From contig NZ_VAUV01000004.1 in NCBI RefSeq assembly GCF_005780165.1, positions 1-64,000 on the forward strand: a stretch of 64,000 bases of DNA. Reading direction: 5' to 3'. The DNA comes from Phragmitibacter flavus (GTDB taxonomy: Bacteria > Verrucomicrobiota > Verrucomicrobiia > Verrucomicrobiales > Verrucomicrobiaceae). Made by a program: the position numbers and the translations under genes. Within the stretch, counting starts at the first letter, position 1, and the number at the start of each line of letters is the position of its first letter. Positions 1 through 10,477 of this stretch are shown here, piece after piece. The notes under the pieces were generated by a model. That model searched no databases. It was not told where the DNA came from and saw only the letters and a program-made list of their open reading frames with translations.

Positions 1-124
1 TTTCGTCTCGTATTTCTCTCCACACGACTTCGCAGCCGTGCAGTTACACTCGACTACCATCAAGGAGCATCGACCTCGAAGACCTGGACTTTCACTGGTT
101 GGTTTCATGTTTTCATATGCGAAC

Positions 125-242
125 GGAGTGCGCCGCTCTGCGGCGCTTTGGATTGTCACTGTGCCCCCGACAACACGCCTCTCTGCCAATCGATCCACCC
201 AGTTCCGCCGCGCAAAAAAAGCGGTGCAGAGCCCCGCACTCC
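125..242. repeat. Long imperfect palindrome (hairpin element)
   Basis: The outer arms, 125-148 and 219-242, are inverted repeats of 24 bp that differ at about 4 positions. Both read GGAGTGCG...GCTCTGC...CGCTT outward to inward. The loop contains a second partial pairing (TTGGATTG against CAATCGATCC). The element ends 18 nt beyond the stop codon of the minus-strand epimerase gene, so it could form in that mRNA's 3' end. A half-copy sharing AAAGCGG...CCGCACTCC lies at 30804-30828. There is no U-tract, so it is not a canonical terminator. Bases 1-124 show nothing I can support. Confidence 0.6.
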
Positions 243-260
243 AAAAACTTGCGCCGTTCC

Positions 261-1238
261 TCAAAACGACGCCACCGTTTCCTGAAGACCTTCTCGCAGC
301 GCGTGTTCGGGAGTAAATCCCAGCACGTCACGCGCCCTGGCGACATCCGCACATGAATGCCGGATGTCTCCCGCGCGGAAATCGCGATGGATCACCTCCT
401 TGACCACTTTGCCCGTCTGCTCCTCAACCAGCGACTTCAACACCGCAAACAACTCAATCAAACTGGTCGCATTGCCCAAGCCCACATTAAAAACTGATCC
501 AAAAGCCCGTTCATCGTCAATCAACGCCGCCAGCAACAATGCCTGTGCCACATCGCGGACGAAACAAAAATCCCGCGTGTTCCCTCCATCCCCGTTGATG
601 AACACCTCACGCCCCGCCTTCATCGCGTCCACCCATTGGGGAATCACCGCCGCATAAGCACCATTGGGATCCTGACGCGGACCAAACACGTTAAAAAACC
701 TCAGTCCCACCACCTTCATGCCATAGCAATTCGACAGCACCTGCGCATCGATCTCGTTCATCCGCTTGCTGGCGGCGTAGGGACTCAAACAACGACCAAT
801 GCTCTCCTCCTTTTTGAAATCCAGCGAATCATCGCCATAGACCGCACTGCTGCTCGCATAACTTACCTGGACAACCCCCGCCTCTTTCGCTGCAAGAAAC
901 ACATTGAGCGTTCCCGTGGCATTGATGTCATGACACAAAGCCGGCTTGTCCAACGACAAAGGCACACTGCCCATGGCCGCGAGATGAATCACCCGCTCCA
1001 CCCCCGCCATCGCCGACGCCACCTGCTGCCTGTCCCGAATGTCCCCCGAAACCAACTCCGCATCCGATTTCAAATTCGCCTCTTTCCCCGTTGAAAAATC
1101 ATCAAAAACTCTCACCCGTTGGCCAACATCCAACAACTTTTCCACCACATGTGAACCAATAAAACCGGCTCCTCCGGTAACGAGCCATTGTTGGGGACGA
1201 GATACCAATACCTGCTGTTGAATCTGATAGGGGGTCAT
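261..1238 (-). CDS. UDP-N-acetylhexosamine C4-epimerase, WbpP-like (extended SDR)
   Basis: This is a 325-residue extended short-chain dehydrogenase that should interconvert UDP-GlcNAc and UDP-GalNAc, or the uronic-acid forms, in the cytoplasm. The glycine-rich NAD motif GGAGFIG is at residues 22-28 and the catalytic triad is in SSS 129-131 with YAASK 154-158. Long stretches resemble Pseudomonas WbpP from memory: GSVP, FNVFGxRQDPNGAYAAVIP, INGDG, and a short N-terminal leader before the Rossmann motif. I chose the ATG at 1238 because the longer frame would begin with TTG at 1247. It lies 28 bp downstream of an AlgD-like gene on the same strand, so the pair probably supplies precursors for a surface polysaccharide. 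Substrate specificity is inferred only. Confidence 0.85.
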   Translation of the reverse strand: MTPYQIQQQVLVSRPQQWLVTGGAGFIGSHVVEKLLDVGQRVRVFDDFSTGKEANLKSDAELVSGDIRDRQQVASAMAGVERVIHLAAMGSVPLSLDKPALCHDINATGTLNVFLAAKEAGVVQVSYASSSAVYGDDSLDFKKEESIGRCLSPYAASKRMNEIDAQVLSNCYGMKVVGLRFFNVFGPRQDPNGAYAAVIPQWVDAMKAGREVFINGDGGNTRDFCFVRDVAQALLLAALIDDERAFGSVFNVGLGNATSLIELFAVLKSLVEEQTGKVVKEVIHRDFRAGDIRHSCADVARARDVLGFTPEHALREGLQETVASF

Positions 1239-1266
1239 AACAAACAATCACTGAATCAATAAAGGC

Positions 1267-2568
1267 TTACCAACAAGCACCCTCATACTGCCACGGAAGG
1301 AGCTTTAGCTCATTCCATCCGTTCACATCCACCACATGCTGATCCGCCCTCGCGGCCGAGGCCAGTTCATCCGTGCGCGCGCATCGCTGGGATGCCACAA
1401 TTACATCGCAACGCGACAACACCTCACGCGGACTCTCGCACATCAGCTCCGTTAAATGCGGCATCCTCCTTTGAATCTCACTCGCATTGGCACCGATCAA
1501 CCTGGCCAAATTGAGCTGTGGATCATAGATGCTCAACTCGCACCCGTTCGCCAGCAATGCCTCCGCCACCGCCACCATCGGACTGCCACGCAAATCGTCC
1601 GTATCCGCCTTGAACGCCAGACCCAACAATCCGATCCGCGTTTTCCCCTTTCCAAGAATCAACTTCACCAATGCCTCCAGATGCGCCCGGTTGGTCGCCA
1701 GAGTATGACCAAGCAAAGGCAGTTCCACCCCAATCCCATCCGCAAAAGCATTCAGCGCGCTCACATCCTTCGGCAGGCACGACCCGCCAAAAGGCGTCCC
1801 CGGTCGCATGTAATACTTCGAGATGTTCAGCTTCGTGTCCGCACACACCACCTCCATCACGGTCTGCCCGTCCTCACCCAACTGCTTGCAAAGCCGGCCA
1901 ATTTCATTCGCAAACCCCACCTTCACCGCATGGAAATAATTGCACGCATACTTGATCATCTCCGCCGCCCGCCATCTCAACGCCGCCGGTTTGCCGCCCA
2001 GCAATTGTCGGGCCACGCCATCCGCTGGCGCAAGGCCATCAAACGTCCCGATCACCGCCAATGACGGATCACGGAAATCCTGAACCGCCGTCCCCTCACG
2101 CAAAAACTCCGGGCAATAATAAATCTTCACGCGCCCGCTCAAGCGCAGTTCCTCAAAAAACTCCGCCACCATCAACCCCGTGCTCCCAGGCAACATCGTG
2201 CTGCGAAAAATCAACACATGCTCCTTGCCGCTCGTCTTCAACGCTTCAGCGATCTGCCCGGAGACATGACGCACATAATCCAGATTCAACTCTCCCGAAG
2301 GCAATGAAGGCGTCCCCACACAAACAATCGACACCTGCGTCTCCGCCACTGCCGCCACCGCATCGGTCGTCGCCCGCAAAGCCCCATCCCTGACCGCCTT
2401 GGCAAGCAATTGATCCAATCCCGGCTCCACTATCGGCGAACGTCCCAGATTGAACGCCTCGATCTTTTCCTTTTGCACATCCACTCCGATCACTTCGTGA
2501 CCCGCCTCAGCAAGGCACGCCGACGTGACAGCTCCCACATATCCAAGGCCAAAAACACTTACTTTCAT
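1267..2568 (-). CDS. algD: GDP-mannose 6-dehydrogenase (AlgD-like)
   Basis: At 433 residues it almost matches Pseudomonas AlgD (436). AlgD performs the NAD-dependent double oxidation of GDP-mannose to GDP-mannuronate. The N-terminus carries the Rossmann motif FGLGYVGAV (6-14) followed by GHEVIGVDV and GKSPIVEPGL-like sequence (GRSPIVEPGL, 42-51), both AlgD hallmarks. The nucleophile cysteine is C264 in GGSCLPKDV, preceded by KYYMRPG as in AlgD. The C-terminus ends in GACW where AlgD ends in GICW. UDP-glucose 6-dehydrogenases share the fold but not this tail, so I favour GDP-mannose as substrate, although UDP-sugars cannot be excluded. It is directly upstream of the WbpP-like epimerase and probably co-transcribed. 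No alginate polymerase is visible in the window. Confidence 0.83.
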   Translation of the reverse strand: MKVSVFGLGYVGAVTSACLAEAGHEVIGVDVQKEKIEAFNLGRSPIVEPGLDQLLAKAVRDGALRATTDAVAAVAETQVSIVCVGTPSLPSGELNLDYVRHVSGQIAEALKTSGKEHVLIFRSTMLPGSTGLMVAEFFEELRLSGRVKIYYCPEFLREGTAVQDFRDPSLAVIGTFDGLAPADGVARQLLGGKPAALRWRAAEMIKYACNYFHAVKVGFANEIGRLCKQLGEDGQTVMEVVCADTKLNISKYYMRPGTPFGGSCLPKDVSALNAFADGIGVELPLLGHTLATNRAHLEALVKLILGKGKTRIGLLGLAFKADTDDLRGSPMVAVAEALLANGCELSIYDPQLNLARLIGANASEIQRRMPHLTELMCESPREVLSRCDVIVASQRCARTDELASAARADQHVVDVNGWNELKLLPWQYEGACW

Positions 2569-2657
2569 GATCCACTACACTCGTCGAAAATTTCTCCACA
2601 GCCGTTAAACACTCGCCCTCCATTACGCAACCATAGAATCATACAATCCTGTAGCAT

Positions 2658-3587
2658 TTATTGCGGTTGCCCCATCTCCTTTTCACGCCAAAGCCGCATC
2701 TCCCCAATCCTGATCCGCCCTTCATTCTCACCCGGCCGAAAGAAGCACACCAACTGCTCCACCTCATTCAAAACCGCCTCATCATTTTCAGCAAACCTCA
2801 TCATCAATCGATTTGTCCCTGGCTGCAATTCCACCTCTCCGTTGATGCGCCCACCATTCCTGCCATCAATGCGCAAACCCATCTTCACCGCCGCATCACC
2901 CTTCCCCATCCACTCATACTCCGCTTCGATCCCGGCATAGTCAGACCAGTCCCCACCAAATCCCGGTCGGCGCAAACTCGACCACTTTCCTGCAACCAAC
3001 TCCAGCACCAAATCATCGCCATCTCCCCGAACCACCCCATCCACCTCGCGCTGCCACAGACCCACCGGCCCCTGCCCACCCTGCGAACCTATCACCGGCA
3101 ATAACTCCCGTTGAGCCGTCTCCAATTGAACCCGCTCCACCAATGGCCACCAGGCCGGAACCGAGGTCATCAGCGCCAAAGGCAACACCCAGCCGCCCCA
3201 ACTTCGCCTCGCATAAGTCAACGCTCCGCCCAACGCCCCCAATCCATTGACGAACACATCGTGACCATCAAAGGTTCTCCCCGTAAACAACTGCAACATC
3301 TCCGCCCCCGCCCCTGCCACCGCCACCAGCAACACCGCCTCCATCAGACTTCCCCAACTCACCTTTCGGCGCTGCCAGCTTAACCAGCCCAGCGCCACTC
3401 CCGCCGCCACCGGCCAGTGCAACACATTCAACCACAAAGCCTTCCCCCCTTCACGCCAGTCTCCAGGCAAAGGCATCACGCACAATCCCAACACCACCGC
3501 CCCCAACGCCAGCCACAGCCACGACACAACTCGCCGACCCCTGAGTCCTGAATTGCCAGTCGGTCTATGCTTCGAAGAATCTCCCAT
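2658..3587 (-). CDS. VanZ-like membrane protein with extracytoplasmic C-terminal domain
   Basis: About 309 residues. The N-terminal part (residues ~20-150) has four or five hydrophobic helices. It contains LNVLHWPVAAGVALG and the VanZ-type signature EMLQLFTGRTFDGHDVFVNGLG, in which E, Q, G and the D-N pair are typical. Residues ~170-309 look like a soluble beta-rich domain with alternating W/Y and charged residues, resembling carbohydrate-binding folds found beside exported glycan genes. I chose the ATG at 3587 because the longer frame would overlap the divergent aldehyde dehydrogenase gene and has low-complexity, uncharacteristic sequence. It is the first gene before algD on this strand, which suggests a link to polysaccharide assembly or surface anchoring. 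VanZ function outside teicoplanin resistance is poorly known. Confidence 0.7.
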   Translation of the reverse strand: MGDSSKHRPTGNSGLRGRRVVSWLWLALGAVVLGLCVMPLPGDWREGGKALWLNVLHWPVAAGVALGWLSWQRRKVSWGSLMEAVLLVAVAGAGAEMLQLFTGRTFDGHDVFVNGLGALGGALTYARRSWGGWVLPLALMTSVPAWWPLVERVQLETAQRELLPVIGSQGGQGPVGLWQREVDGVVRGDGDDLVLELVAGKWSSLRRPGFGGDWSDYAGIEAEYEWMGKGDAAVKMGLRIDGRNGGRINGEVELQPGTNRLMMRFAENDEAVLNEVEQLVCFFRPGENEGRIRIGEMRLWREKEMGQPQ

Positions 3588-3697: not shown

Positions 3698-5161
3698 ATG
3701 GTTCCCATGAAAAAACTCCACGCCCCTCATCTTCTCCGTTCCGAATGCTACATCGACGGCTCATGGCAGCAGTCCGACTCAGGCTCGACCATCGCCGTCA
3801 CCAATCCCTCTACCCAATCGCTCATCGGTCATGTTCCCTCCATGGAAAAAGCCGAAGCCAACCGCGCCATCGAAGCCGCCTACCGCGCCCTCCCATCCTG
3901 GCGCGACACTCCGGCTCAAGATCGCGCCACCATCCTGCGCCGCTGGTTCAACCTCATCATCGGGCACCAGGATGATCTCGCCAGCATCATGACCGCCGAA
4001 CAAGGCAAACCCCTCGCTGAATCCAAGACCGAAATCACCTACGCCGCCTCCTTCATCGAATGGTTCGCCGAACAGGCCAAACGCACCTACGGCGACACCA
4101 TCCCCTCCAAAAGCAAAGGCAGCCGACTCATCACCATCAAACAACCCGTCGGTGTCTGCGCCGCCATCACCCCGTGGAACTTCCCCGCTGCCATGATCAC
4201 CCGCAAAGCCGGTGCCGCCCTCGCCGCCGGATGCACCATGGTCGTCAAACCCGCCAGCCAAACTCCGCTCTCCGCGCTCGCTCTTGCCGTGCTCGCCGAA
4301 GAGGCTGGTGTTCCCGACGGCGTCCTCTCCGTCATCACCGGCGACTCTTCTGAGATCGGCAAAGCCTTCACCTCCAGCCAACTCGTCCGAAAACTCACCT
4401 TCACCGGCTCCACCAAAACCGGCGCCGCCCTCATGCGCGACTGTGCCAACACCATAAAAAAAGTTTCGCTCGAACTCGGCGGCAACGCCCCCTTTATTGT
4501 TTTTGATGATGCCGACCTCGAAGCCGCTGCCGAGGGCGTCATCCAATCAAAATTCCGCAACACCGGCCAGACCTGCGTGTGCGCCAACCGCATCTTCATC
4601 CACGACACCATCTACGAAAAATTCACCCACCTACTCGCCGCCAAAATCGCTGAACTGAAAGTCGGCGACGGCTTCGAACCCGACATCACCCAAGGCCCCC
4701 TCATCAACATCGAGGCTGTAGAAAAAGTCGAATCCCTCCTCGCCGACGCTACTTCCAAAGGAGCCACGATTGCCGTCGGCGGCCGTCGCCATGCCAAAGG
4801 CGGCACCTTCTTCGAACCCACCCTGCTCACCGAAGCCACCTCCGACATGCAACTCGCGCAGGACGAAATCTTCGGCCCCGTCGCCCCCCTCTTCCGTTTT
4901 CAAAACGAAGCCGAAGTCATCGCCATGGCCAACGACACCGAATACGGCCTTGCCGCCTATTTCTACAGTCGCGACATCGGCCGCATCTGGCGCACCGCCG
5001 AAGCCCTCGAATGCGGCATGGTCGGCATCAACACCGGCATCATCTCCACCGAAACCGCCCCCTTTGGCGGCATCAAACAATCCGGCATTGGTCGCGAAGG
5101 TTCACACGAAGGCATCGAAGAATATTTAGAAAGCAAATACCTCAACCTCTCCGGCCTGTAA
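3698..5161 (+). CDS. gabD: NAD(P)-dependent succinate-semialdehyde dehydrogenase family protein
   Basis: A 487-residue aldehyde dehydrogenase of the GabD type, oxidising succinate semialdehyde to succinate in GABA and related catabolism. Visible motifs are TPWNFP (158-163) in the cofactor site, FTGST (235-239), the general base E259 in LELGG, and the nucleophile C293 in NTGQTCVCANR. The second cysteine two residues on (C295) matches GabD enzymes, where this pair can form a redox-regulated disulfide. Two in-frame ATGs exist. The one at 3707 (MKKLH) fits the family N-terminus better, and neither has a strong ribosome binding site. It is divergent from the VanZ gene, and no GABA transaminase is nearby, so the physiological substrate is unsettled. 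Confidence 0.85.
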   Translation: MVPMKKLHAPHLLRSECYIDGSWQQSDSGSTIAVTNPSTQSLIGHVPSMEKAEANRAIEAAYRALPSWRDTPAQDRATILRRWFNLIIGHQDDLASIMTAEQGKPLAESKTEITYAASFIEWFAEQAKRTYGDTIPSKSKGSRLITIKQPVGVCAAITPWNFPAAMITRKAGAALAAGCTMVVKPASQTPLSALALAVLAEEAGVPDGVLSVITGDSSEIGKAFTSSQLVRKLTFTGSTKTGAALMRDCANTIKKVSLELGGNAPFIVFDDADLEAAAEGVIQSKFRNTGQTCVCANRIFIHDTIYEKFTHLLAAKIAELKVGDGFEPDITQGPLINIEAVEKVESLLADATSKGATIAVGGRRHAKGGTFFEPTLLTEATSDMQLAQDEIFGPVAPLFRFQNEAEVIAMANDTEYGLAAYFYSRDIGRIWRTAEALECGMVGINTGIISTETAPFGGIKQSGIGREGSHEGIEEYLESKYLNLSGL

Positions 5162-8468: not shown

Positions 8469-8494
8469 TATCCTTTAGCCCTTATCCTTTAGCC
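8469..8494 (+). repeat. Short direct repeat TATCCTTTAGCC x2
   Basis: The 12-mer TATCCTTTAGCC occurs at 8469-8480 and again at 8483-8494, two nucleotides apart, in the 47 bp between the hydrolase and the PIG-L gene. It could be a protein-binding site or simple slippage. No function is visible. Confidence 0.4.
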
Positions 8495-8504
8495 TTTCTT
8501 TTTC

Positions 8505-9356
8505 ATGCTCTTCCGCCATTCCCACGCCGACCTTTTCGTCCCCGATCAATGCGACCCCGCCCAAGCCTTCGCCCGCGTCACCCACCTCGGCATCGTCAGC
8601 CATCAGGACGACCTCGAAATCGCCGCCTACCACGGCATCACCGAATGTTTCCGCCGCAACGACCAATGGTTCGGCGGTGTCGTCGTCACCAACGGCTCGG
8701 GCAGTCCCCGCAAAGGTGCCTACAGCCATTACACCGATGAAGAAATGCAGGACGTTCGCAAACAGGAACAGCGCAAAGCCGCCTTCGTTGGAGAATACAG
8801 CGTCATGGTTCAACTGGGGTATCCCAGCGAAGACGTCAAACACACCCGCCACGACGACGTCTCCTCCGACCTCCTCAAAATCCTCCAACTCTGCCAGCCC
8901 CGCTTCGTCTATCTTCACAATCCCGCCGACCGACACGACACTCACGTCGCCACCTTCCTGCGTTGTCTTGAAGCCCTTCGCCAGCTTCCCAAACAAGCGC
9001 GTCCGCAAAAAGTCTACGGCTGCGAAGTCTGGCGCAAACTCGACTGGCTGCTCGCCCAGGACAAAGAGATGCTGTGGGTCGATCAATACCCTCATCTCAT
9101 CGGTGCCCTGCTCGCCGTTTTCGATTCCCAAATCAGTGGCGGCAAACGTTACGACCTTGCCGAAGAAGGCCTGCGTCGCGCCAACGCCACTTACTTCGAC
9201 TCCCACACCACCGACAACACCAACGCCCTCACCTACGCCATGGATCTCACCCCGCTGATCCAGGACGACACCCTCGATCCCGAAACCTACACCACCGCCT
9301 ACATCGACCGCCTCAAGGACGACGTCCAGCAACGCCTGCGCCGCTTTCAACCGTGA
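8505..9356 (+). CDS. PIG-L/LmbE family deacetylase
   Basis: 283 residues. PIG-L enzymes are zinc-dependent N-deacetylases of GlcNAc-type substrates. The first metal motif is SHQDDLE at residues 32-38 (His33, Asp35, Asp36). Most family members have AHPDDxE, so Gln34 replaces the usual proline. The second site is DRHDTHVA (His144, His147). NGSGSPRKG and YTDEEMQDVRKQEQRKAA correspond to the conserved region between them. There is no signal peptide, so it is cytoplasmic. The stop codon lies inside the first arm of the hairpin array at 9353-9533. The precise substrate is unknown; mycothiol-type or glycan-precursor deacetylation would be typical. Confidence 0.85.
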   Translation: MLFRHSHADLFVPDQCDPAQAFARVTHLGIVSHQDDLEIAAYHGITECFRRNDQWFGGVVVTNGSGSPRKGAYSHYTDEEMQDVRKQEQRKAAFVGEYSVMVQLGYPSEDVKHTRHDDVSSDLLKILQLCQPRFVYLHNPADRHDTHVATFLRCLEALRQLPKQARPQKVYGCEVWRKLDWLLAQDKEMLWVDQYPHLIGALLAVFDSQISGGKRYDLAEEGLRRANATYFDSHTTDNTNALTYAMDLTPLIQDDTLDPETYTTAYIDRLKDDVQQRLRRFQP

Positions 9357-9533
9357 CACAGGCTTGCAGCCTGTGGGTGCGACAGGCATTTCGCCTGTGC
9401 GACTGGAAGGTTCGGCTCGGAGCCGTAACACAGACTTCCAGTCTGTGCTTTCAGAAAGTCCTCCGCCCAAATAAGCCCCCACACCGGGCAGGTTGCAAAC
9501 CTGCCCCACCCACAGGCTGCAAGCCTGTGTCAC
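9353..9533. repeat. Hairpin array bounded by 27-bp perfect inverted repeats
   Basis: The ends 9353-9379 and 9507-9533 are perfect 27-bp inverted repeats. Inside and including the ends are six short palindromes: 9357-9375 (CACAGGCT-TGC-AGCCTGTG), 9382-9398 (ACAGGC...GCCTGT), 9413-9425 (CGGCTC-G-GAGCCG), 9429-9447 (CACAGACT-TCC-AGTCTGTG), 9486-9506 (GGGCAGGTT-GCA-AACCTGCCC) and 9511-9529 (CACAGGCT-GCA-AGCCTGTG). It fills the gap between two convergent genes and starts inside the PIG-L stop codon. It has no U-tract and no spacer regularity, so it is neither a CRISPR nor a simple terminator. It could act as a bidirectional 3'-end structure or a REP-like mobile palindrome. Confidence 0.85.
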
Positions 9534-9543
9534 CTCCCTACAC

Positions 9544-10410
9544 CTACTGGTTCTTCTCTCCCCAGGCCTTCACGAACTCGATGCACTTCTTAATGTCGCC
9601 GACATTGTCCTCCCACTTGTTTTCATACTCGACCGACACGTTGCCATCAAAACCCTGTGCCTTCAGTTCCGCAAGCATCGCAGGCACATCGCAAATCCCC
9701 TCGCCATAAATCTGATCCTTCGCCTGTCTGCCGATCTCCGTGCGATCCTTCAAGTGGGTGCTGATGATCCGACCTTTCAAAATTTTCAAGCAGTCCAAAG
9801 GCACCAATCCACTCGTCGCCCAATGTCCGGTATCGCCACAGGCACCCAAACGCGGATCACGATCCTTCACCAGGCTCAACACGAAATTGGGATCCCACAA
9901 TTGATAGGCCCGGTCCAAACGTTTGGCATGCTGATGATACCCCGCCTTGATGTCATACTCCTTCACCATCTTTTCGATGATATCGACATTCTTCACGTCT
10001 TCCGTCGTCACCGCATAAAGCCCCAGCTTCTTCGCAAACTCAAAAATTTGCTTCCACTCCGCTTCATCCTTGCCGCCCACCACCCCGTAGTTGACCGCTT
10101 TCACGCCGTGTTTGGTCAGCTTTGCCTGAAGCTCCGCGAAATCTTCGTCGCTCATGGTGTGATGCAACTTTTTGTCCGGCTTCTCCACGCTCAGCTTTTG
10201 TCCTGGATAAAACTCAATCACCTTCGCCCCCGCCTCCGCCGCCTTCTCCACCGCCTCAAACGCCGTGAACTTGTTGAACGAATAAGCCTGCGGCCCGACC
10301 GCAAAGCCTCCTTGCTTCACCTCCTCGGGAATCTGATTGGCTGCAAAAAGACCGCCAGCCGCCAGAACGGCCGCCGCAAAAAACGAAAGGAAACGGGTGC
10401 ATGTTTTCAT
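9544..10410 (-). CDS. Exported sugar phosphate isomerase/epimerase-like TIM barrel
   Basis: 288 residues. The ATG at 10410 gives a signal peptide (MKTCTRFLSFFAAAVLAAGGLFA), and the 12 extra codons upstream would spoil it. The body is an AP-endonuclease-2 / xylose-isomerase-like barrel: GPQAYSFNKFTAFEAVEKAAEAG at the start, GYHQHAKRL with a metal-type histidine, GACGDTGHWATSG near residue 200, ISTHLKDR, and a terminal SVEYE...W pattern. Such exported barrels are abundant in Planctomycetota and Verrucomicrobiota and are usually assigned to periplasmic sugar processing, but the substrate is unknown. It converges with the PIG-L gene across the hairpin array. Confidence 0.82.
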   Translation of the reverse strand: MKTCTRFLSFFAAAVLAAGGLFAANQIPEEVKQGGFAVGPQAYSFNKFTAFEAVEKAAEAGAKVIEFYPGQKLSVEKPDKKLHHTMSDEDFAELQAKLTKHGVKAVNYGVVGGKDEAEWKQIFEFAKKLGLYAVTTEDVKNVDIIEKMVKEYDIKAGYHQHAKRLDRAYQLWDPNFVLSLVKDRDPRLGACGDTGHWATSGLVPLDCLKILKGRIISTHLKDRTEIGRQAKDQIYGEGICDVPAMLAELKAQGFDGNVSVEYENKWEDNVGDIKKCIEFVKAWGEKNQ

Positions 10411-10477
10411 CAGCCCCAGTCCAGCTTGCAGCGACTCCGATGTCAAGACGCAGTTGAATGGAAAACCCGATCAGCCC

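Follow-up and report, generated by a model that had tools for sequence, protein, structure and literature searches.

The 64-kb window, by which we mean the whole stretch of DNA analysed here, carries between a PIG-L family deacetylase gene and a convergent TIM-barrel gene an array of hairpins that an earlier note had described as six hairpins within perfect 27-bp inverted ends at 9353-9533. The coordinates, the ends and the convergent setting hold on re-examination, and six hairpins can indeed be drawn, one of which (at about 9413-9425) is short and was read by eye. The features of the locus are:

8505-9356 (+): PIG-L family deacetylase gene; its TGA stop (9354-9356) comes from the repeat head
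9353-9399 (+): unit A, 47 nt, with head GTGAC, hairpin 1, linker and hairpin 2
9357-9375: hairpin 1 of the plus-strand unit A, 8 bp, 3-nt loop
9382-9398: hairpin 2 of the plus-strand unit A, 6 bp, 5-nt loop
9400-9424 (no strand): spacer, with the short GC-rich hairpin at about 9413-9425
9425-9447 (+): partial unit B of a second subfamily, with head GTAAC and hairpin CACAGACT-TCC-AGTCTGTG, without the second hairpin
9429-9447: hairpin of unit B, 8 bp, CAGACT..AGTCTG
9487-9533 (-): unit A, inverted, with head GTGAC at 9533-9529
9511-9529: hairpin 1 of the inverted unit A, 8 bp
9486-9506: hairpin 2 of the inverted unit A, 9 bp, CAGGTT..AACCTG variant
9544-10446 (-): TIM-barrel gene (AP_endonuc_2, sugar-isomerase-like), convergent with PIG-L; start codon uncertain

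The array is composed of two inverted 47-nt two-hairpin units around a partial unit of the second subfamily, and in a full unit GTGA precedes an 8-bp stem closed by a 3-nt loop, after which come the linker GGTG.. and a further hairpin. The units at 9353-9399 and 9487-9533 lie in opposite orientation and form an inverted doublet (REPIN); the inverted repeat of the array ends, perfect over 27 bp between 9353-9379 (GTGACACAGGCTTGCAGCCTGTGGGTG) and 9507-9533, reaches 34 nt at 94% identity when extended. Folded as ssDNA, 9349-9537 reached -65.4 kcal/mol, compared with a mean of -29.5 (sd 3.4) over 200 shuffles (z -10.7), with an alternative pairing of 9401-9409 with 9435-9443 possible at the spacer. 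Perfect CAG..CTG hairpins with arms of 6-9 and loops of 3-6 number four in the whole window, and all of them fall within the array. A 352-aa ORF at 8475-9533 (-) begins in the repeat and runs antisense across PIG-L; repeat-born ORFs of this kind could be mis-annotated as proteins.

PIG-L matches came from 39 of the 57 genomes, own included, and 30 loci (own plus 29 relatives, with 1.5-kb flanks) were compared by reading about 257 nt behind each PIG-L stop and searching every locus in full for the core hairpin, at most two mismatches being allowed. Within these flanks the core hairpin was found at PIG-L in none of the 29 relatives and only the own locus has a copy; we therefore regard the copy as lineage-specific, and the structure as a property of the repeat family and not of the locus. 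Three genomes of one genus (G215, G394 and G400; PIG-L 86% identical) have other palindromes behind PIG-L. Because the sets searched hold no same-genus genome, the comparison contains no pair of filled and empty sites at the nucleotide level. The earlier note had taken the variant arms of the array for covariation within one locus and hence for a sign of selection for structure; the variants instead belong to repeat units from more than one subfamily, combined in a mosaic element. Selection for structure does hold, at the level of the mobile family, whose stems co-vary over 59 distinct units. That note had also staked its reading on other copies and on structure conserved in close relatives: other copies exist, whereas the structure is not conserved at this place.

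Copies, covariation and positions of the repeat

The repeat is a short dispersed palindrome, the core hairpin of which (at most one mismatch) occurs at 65 places in the own 5.9-Mb genome, against 0 for a reversed control pattern. Whole units number 71 in 329 kb of non-redundant own sequence, a set made up of the window and the own-genome stretches around repeats and RAYTs, and of these 58 are closer to type A and 13 to type B. The units were picked by likeness to two consensus strings, pairing not being used as a criterion; they comprise 59 distinct sequences, and one shuffle gave 0 units. Over the 71 units 96.6% of the base-pair cells (n = 1136) are Watson-Crick and 1.1% are G-T. Restricted to the 59 distinct rows, the Watson-Crick share is 0.960, compared with a maximum of 0.859 in 1000 permutations of the 3' letters, a comparison to be read as a guide and not as a probability because repeat copies share ancestry. 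Changes on both sides of a pair are frequent at 10/18 (GC 60, AT 10), 30/46 (AT 42, GC 18), 32/44 (AT 53, GC 17) and 34/42 (GC 52, AT 15), and one frequent exception to pairing is 8/20 (AT 64, GG 6).

Most copies are single two-hairpin units without an inverted partner. Since nearly all of the 59 distinct units have the head GTGA or GTAA, rather than GTAG or GT[AG]G, we call the family REP-like and not GTAG REP. Of 387 genomes of the phylum, 5, own included, contain the exact stem pattern, which makes the stem sequence lineage-specific although the build recurs. The phylum is probably Verrucomicrobiota, and kinship among the genomes suggests the order Verrucomicrobiales. Among 18 genomes searched for the stem ACAGGYT..ARCCTGT, it was counted 62 times in the own genome (G000), 39 times in G389, 38 in G390 and 11 in G402, and only 0-5 times in each of the other 14. 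A search of plasmids and phages gave no match. At loci L084 and L086, free RAYTs lie amid long arrays in which GGGATCA..TGATCCC and GGGACCA..TGGTCCC hairpins alternate.

Positions relative to genes were surveyed for 49 repeat clusters with a simple home-made gene caller. Thirty clusters lie between tandem genes, 9 between convergent and 0 between divergent genes, and a further 8 fall within called genes and 2 at contig edges, compared with 159 tandem, 35 convergent and 36 divergent gene pairs in the same sequence; at this background rate the chance that 0 of 39 intergenic clusters are divergent is about 0.001 by simple arithmetic. By these home-made calls, the convergent position of the window array is not special. 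The neighbouring gene ends inside the repeat head in 10 of the 49 clusters, 8 with TGA (GTGAC) and 2 with TAA (GTAAC), the PIG-L gene of the window among them, and a similar habit of supplying stop codons is described for GTAG REPs (PMC3733652). Each of five reading frames is stop-free in 46-56 of the 59 distinct units, the sixth frame in 1; for shuffled units the figure is about 34-38 per frame.

These positions bear on a reading in which the array is kept because it serves both convergent genes, as an intrinsic terminator working in both directions or by stabilising mRNA 3' ends, which would account for a strongly folding element at the 3' ends of both and for the lack of copies between divergent genes. 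We consider it unlikely: a scan gave one weak terminator-like site of 5 pairs within the array (9492-9478 on the minus strand; 0.4 sites in shuffles, sd 0.7) and none at its strong hairpins, no copy stands at the orthologous place in the 29 relatives, and tandem genes flank 30 of the 39 intergenic clusters. Stabilisation of RNA by the element could occur as a by-product.

A RAYT gene among the repeats and the origin of the element

The own genome has 13 Y1_Tnp matches, and among ten of its Y1_Tnp loci that were compared (L022-L031) only L022 is surrounded by the repeat, L031 having one divergent unit and the rest none. At L022 six repeat units (at 3878, 4015, 4040, 4183, 4964 and 6565) lie within about 2.7 kb around the RAYT gene C5:266169-266888, the product of which matches Y1_Tnp at 37.6 bits (cut-off 23) and carries the motifs of an HUH/Tyr protein (HUH, NHAH; Tyr, YIQQNP). 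The better of two NCBIfam families matched, NF047646 REP_Tyr_transpos, scored 69.9 bits (E 2e-19), below its cut-off of 80. A PDB sequence search with this RAYT gave nothing at E 0.001, and a search of genome contigs with a RAYT fragment gave one match, distant and in Bacteroidetes.

Given 65 copies, covarying stems and a RAYT among six units, we interpret 9353-9533 as a REPIN/BIME-type non-autonomous mobile element in which two REP-like units, heads outward, are inverted around a partial unit of the second subfamily, a reading to which we assign a probability of roughly 0.9. That it belongs to a RAYT-linked repeat family is well supported, and the REP-type element with RAYT that the earlier note had envisaged is thereby borne out; most likely the element was spread in trans by the RAYT of L022. 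We infer recognition, cutting and transposition along the following lines. A strand exposed as ssDNA would have its head and hairpin recognised by the RAYT, a predicted HUH/Tyr single-strand transposase, which would cut and rejoin the strand and deposit the repeat elsewhere; surviving copies would mostly be those behind stop codons or open in coding frame. The window copy would have landed against the PIG-L stop after the lineage parted from the sampled relatives, and its influence, if any, on the 3' ends of both convergent transcripts would be secondary.

Parallels exist in described systems. The REP of S. maltophilia, which is cut by its RAYT in vitro, has the same geometry as hairpin 1 with its head here (23 nt, 8-bp stem, 3-nt loop) (PMC8266576). 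GTAG REPs, REPINs and BIMEs with a RAYT (REPtrons) are likewise reported as high-copy short palindromes and inverted doublets with the RAYT among the repeats, lying just behind or supplying stop codons and in some cases in coding frames (PMC3733652, PMC8266576, PMC6006769), whereas here the head is GTGA or GTAA, each unit has two consecutive hairpins and the open RAYT frame extends into a NUDIX gene. REP subclasses without GT[AG]G are among those published (PMC6006769).

The perfect terminal inverted repeats and the dispersed copies would also suit a MITE or IS fragment mobilised through its 27-bp inverted ends by a transposase of the classical (DDE) kind. We regard this as very improbable, since the prevalence of single units means that the inverted ends are not the mobile unit, and a RAYT gene lies among the repeats. 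A structured non-coding RNA gene, which the covarying hairpins and stable fold would fit, is the least probable reading of all, as the 65 dispersed places vary in unit composition, the scan gave no promoter-like site, the low share of G-T pairs fits DNA better than RNA, and an Rfam search (501 bases, threshold 'evalue') returned nothing above the gathering score and one sub-threshold match, Pyrobac-1 (25 bits against 40, E 0.024).

The frame of the own RAYT is stop-free across two repeat pairs into the NUDIX gene, and such RAYT-NUDIX frames, of 501-565 aa, occur in the own genome, G390, G215, G394 and G400. In a relative without a RAYT at this place (L138) the NUDIX frame starts ..MITPDFPLCEIKDHDGW; the five RAYT-NUDIX frames keep FPLC (FELC in one) and have lost the ATG seen in L138, and the sequence preceding FPLC looks repeat-encoded. 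GTG codons of the repeat could serve as starts. Between loci L070 and L073 of genus g3 the RAYT part has a dN/dS of 0.126. At synonymous sites the RAYT part of L070, L072 and L073 has diverged much more than the NUDIX part, with 0.48 against 0.13 for the adjoining NUDIX part between L070 and L073.

Near the RAYT gene, 24 of 29 loci of relatives have at least one perfect hairpin of at least 7 bp, with other stems, in a listing made without chance control; such hairpins were sought and not found at L075, L082, L092, L093 and L097. The RAYT-flanking repeats of genus g3 share the two-hairpin build with a GTAG head, and three g3 genomes have the RAYT-NUDIX locus and only 2-5 stems ACAGGYT..ARCCTGT. 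G390 has the RAYT-NUDIX locus and G389, with its 39 stem copies, is without it, so the stem is not tied strictly to this one RAYT.

RAYTs in frame inside host genes

The own RAYT was matched in 48 of 57 genomes (own and 56 relatives), and a hand count among the 150 matches listed gave 22 open frames of at least 400 aa, 15 of them of at least 600 aa. Five of the 22 are RAYT-NUDIX frames, 11 have one host protein on both sides of the RAYT and 6 were not counted. A wider search took in 145 genomes of the phylum, 90 of which matched, and gave 10 frames of at least 600 aa among the matches listed. The nested RAYTs of the first and then of the wider search are:

carB, G430: profile 1-476, RAYT, 481-1058
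leuS, G390: profile to 360, RAYT, from 368
leuS, G393: profile to 362, RAYT, from 366
clpB, G414: profile 1-514, RAYT, 521-852
metH, G403: profile to 940, RAYT, from 940
metH, G422: profile to 1067, RAYT, from 1059
restriction R subunit (hsdR), G390: HSDR_N, RAYT, SNF2-type ATPase
glycosyltransferase, G196: RAYT nested
glycosyltransferase, own genome, L029 2042-4033 (+): frame of 664 aa, by alignment to G196
methylase, G417 and G430, one site: family match on the C side, N side from mutual alignment
alaS, G065 (wider search): RAYT between profile 373 and 379
alaS, G078 (wider search): contig end cuts the gene; profile resumes at 378 behind the RAYT
radical-SAM protein, G029 (wider search): B12-binding domain, RAYT, radical SAM
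methylase, G115 (wider search): C side by family match, N side by eye

Host profiles resume within a few positions behind the nested RAYTs in leuS (two genomes), alaS (two), carB, clpB and metH (two), the loci being L119, L124, L204, L207, L133, L121, L126 and L123. The glycosyltransferase gene of L029 lies just behind leuS and is flanked by another palindromic repeat (GACCGACGGAACGTCGGTGGTCC-like), and the RAYT of G196 sits at the same site. Frames of the first search were not counted as nested where no host gene was recognised (L129), where they lay outside the family-library comparison (L122, L130), where the family match covered the C-terminal side only (L127, L132) or where a contig end cuts the frame (L128, metH). 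The other six of the ten long frames in the wider search were set aside likewise: no host gene was recognised by eye in L202 and L203, the RAYT lies behind an almost complete host domain in L205 and L208, host sequence on both sides was not established in L206, and in L210 the RAYT follows a radical-SAM protein with its last domain matched only in part.

A search for further copies gave no second full leuS in either G390 or G393, nor another carB in G430 (assemblies 92-96% complete); the open frames and this lack of a second copy would imply that the nested RAYTs are translated as part of their hosts. Only G390 and G393 among the 57 genomes have leuS frames with a RAYT in the matches listed, which makes nesting in any one gene rare. 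The HxH and Tyr motifs are kept by all 21 RAYTs in host frames and equally by all 25 free RAYTs of the same alignment, the rows of which were chosen among good matches; for both reasons we dropped intact HUH motifs as special to nested RAYTs.

We tentatively suggest, at somewhat less than even odds and from sequence comparison, that RAYTs may persist in this phylum by nesting: lying in frame in loops of LeuRS, AlaRS, CarB, MetH and ClpB, proteins indispensable to the cell, with repeat flanks as stop-free peptide linkers, they would be made as a domain of a housekeeping enzyme and host selection would hold their frame open, while the repeat family of the window would be served by a RAYT fused through repeats to a NUDIX hydrolase. 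That nesting helps RAYTs to persist is a hypothesis of this analysis. Inteins, too, are enzyme frames nested in conserved host genes; the inserts here are instead joined by repeat-encoded linkers, and no intein domains appeared in the nested proteins among the matches listed. If true, nested RAYTs would be a kind of protein insertion other than inteins, and their being locked in frame in indispensable genes would give a directly testable reason for the persistence of what are described as single-copy, vertically inherited, domesticated transposases, a persistence still being modelled (PMC8049555). REPs of Opitutus terrae (Verrucomicrobia) and RPEs of Rickettsia are also palindromic repeats in frame within protein-coding genes, as described in PMC3733652, and most GTAG-20 repeats of O. 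terrae have the head GTGG; in those two systems the repeats alone are inserted and code for about 20-80 residues, whereas here whole RAYT genes with repeat flanks stand in host frames. In the open PMC literature we came across intragenic REPs and RPEs but no paper describing a complete RAYT gene set in frame in a housekeeping gene, which is weak evidence of absence. A 2018 family survey left out members of unexpected length, treating them as gene fusions or annotation errors (PMC6006769), and this may show why nested proteins were overlooked.

A tree of 46 RAYTs joins the glycosyltransferase pair (G000 and G196) as sisters with support 100/97 and the methylase pair (G417 and G430, of two families) with support 97/98, the pattern to be expected of nested copies that are inherited or travel with the host gene. 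Within G390, the copy in leuS and the one in hsdR are likewise sisters (99/86), which points to putative RAYT movement within one genome. The two leuS copies (G390 and G393) are not sisters in the best tree, and a single origin of the two insertions is not rejected by the AU test (one clade, p 0.256); for the metH pair the one-clade AU p is 0.245. In metH of G403 (L126, frame 3-3506), aa 36-417 seem to be an additional segment, about 380 aa long, that separates the two B12-binding parts and matches Zeta_toxin weakly (25.7 bits against 22.3).
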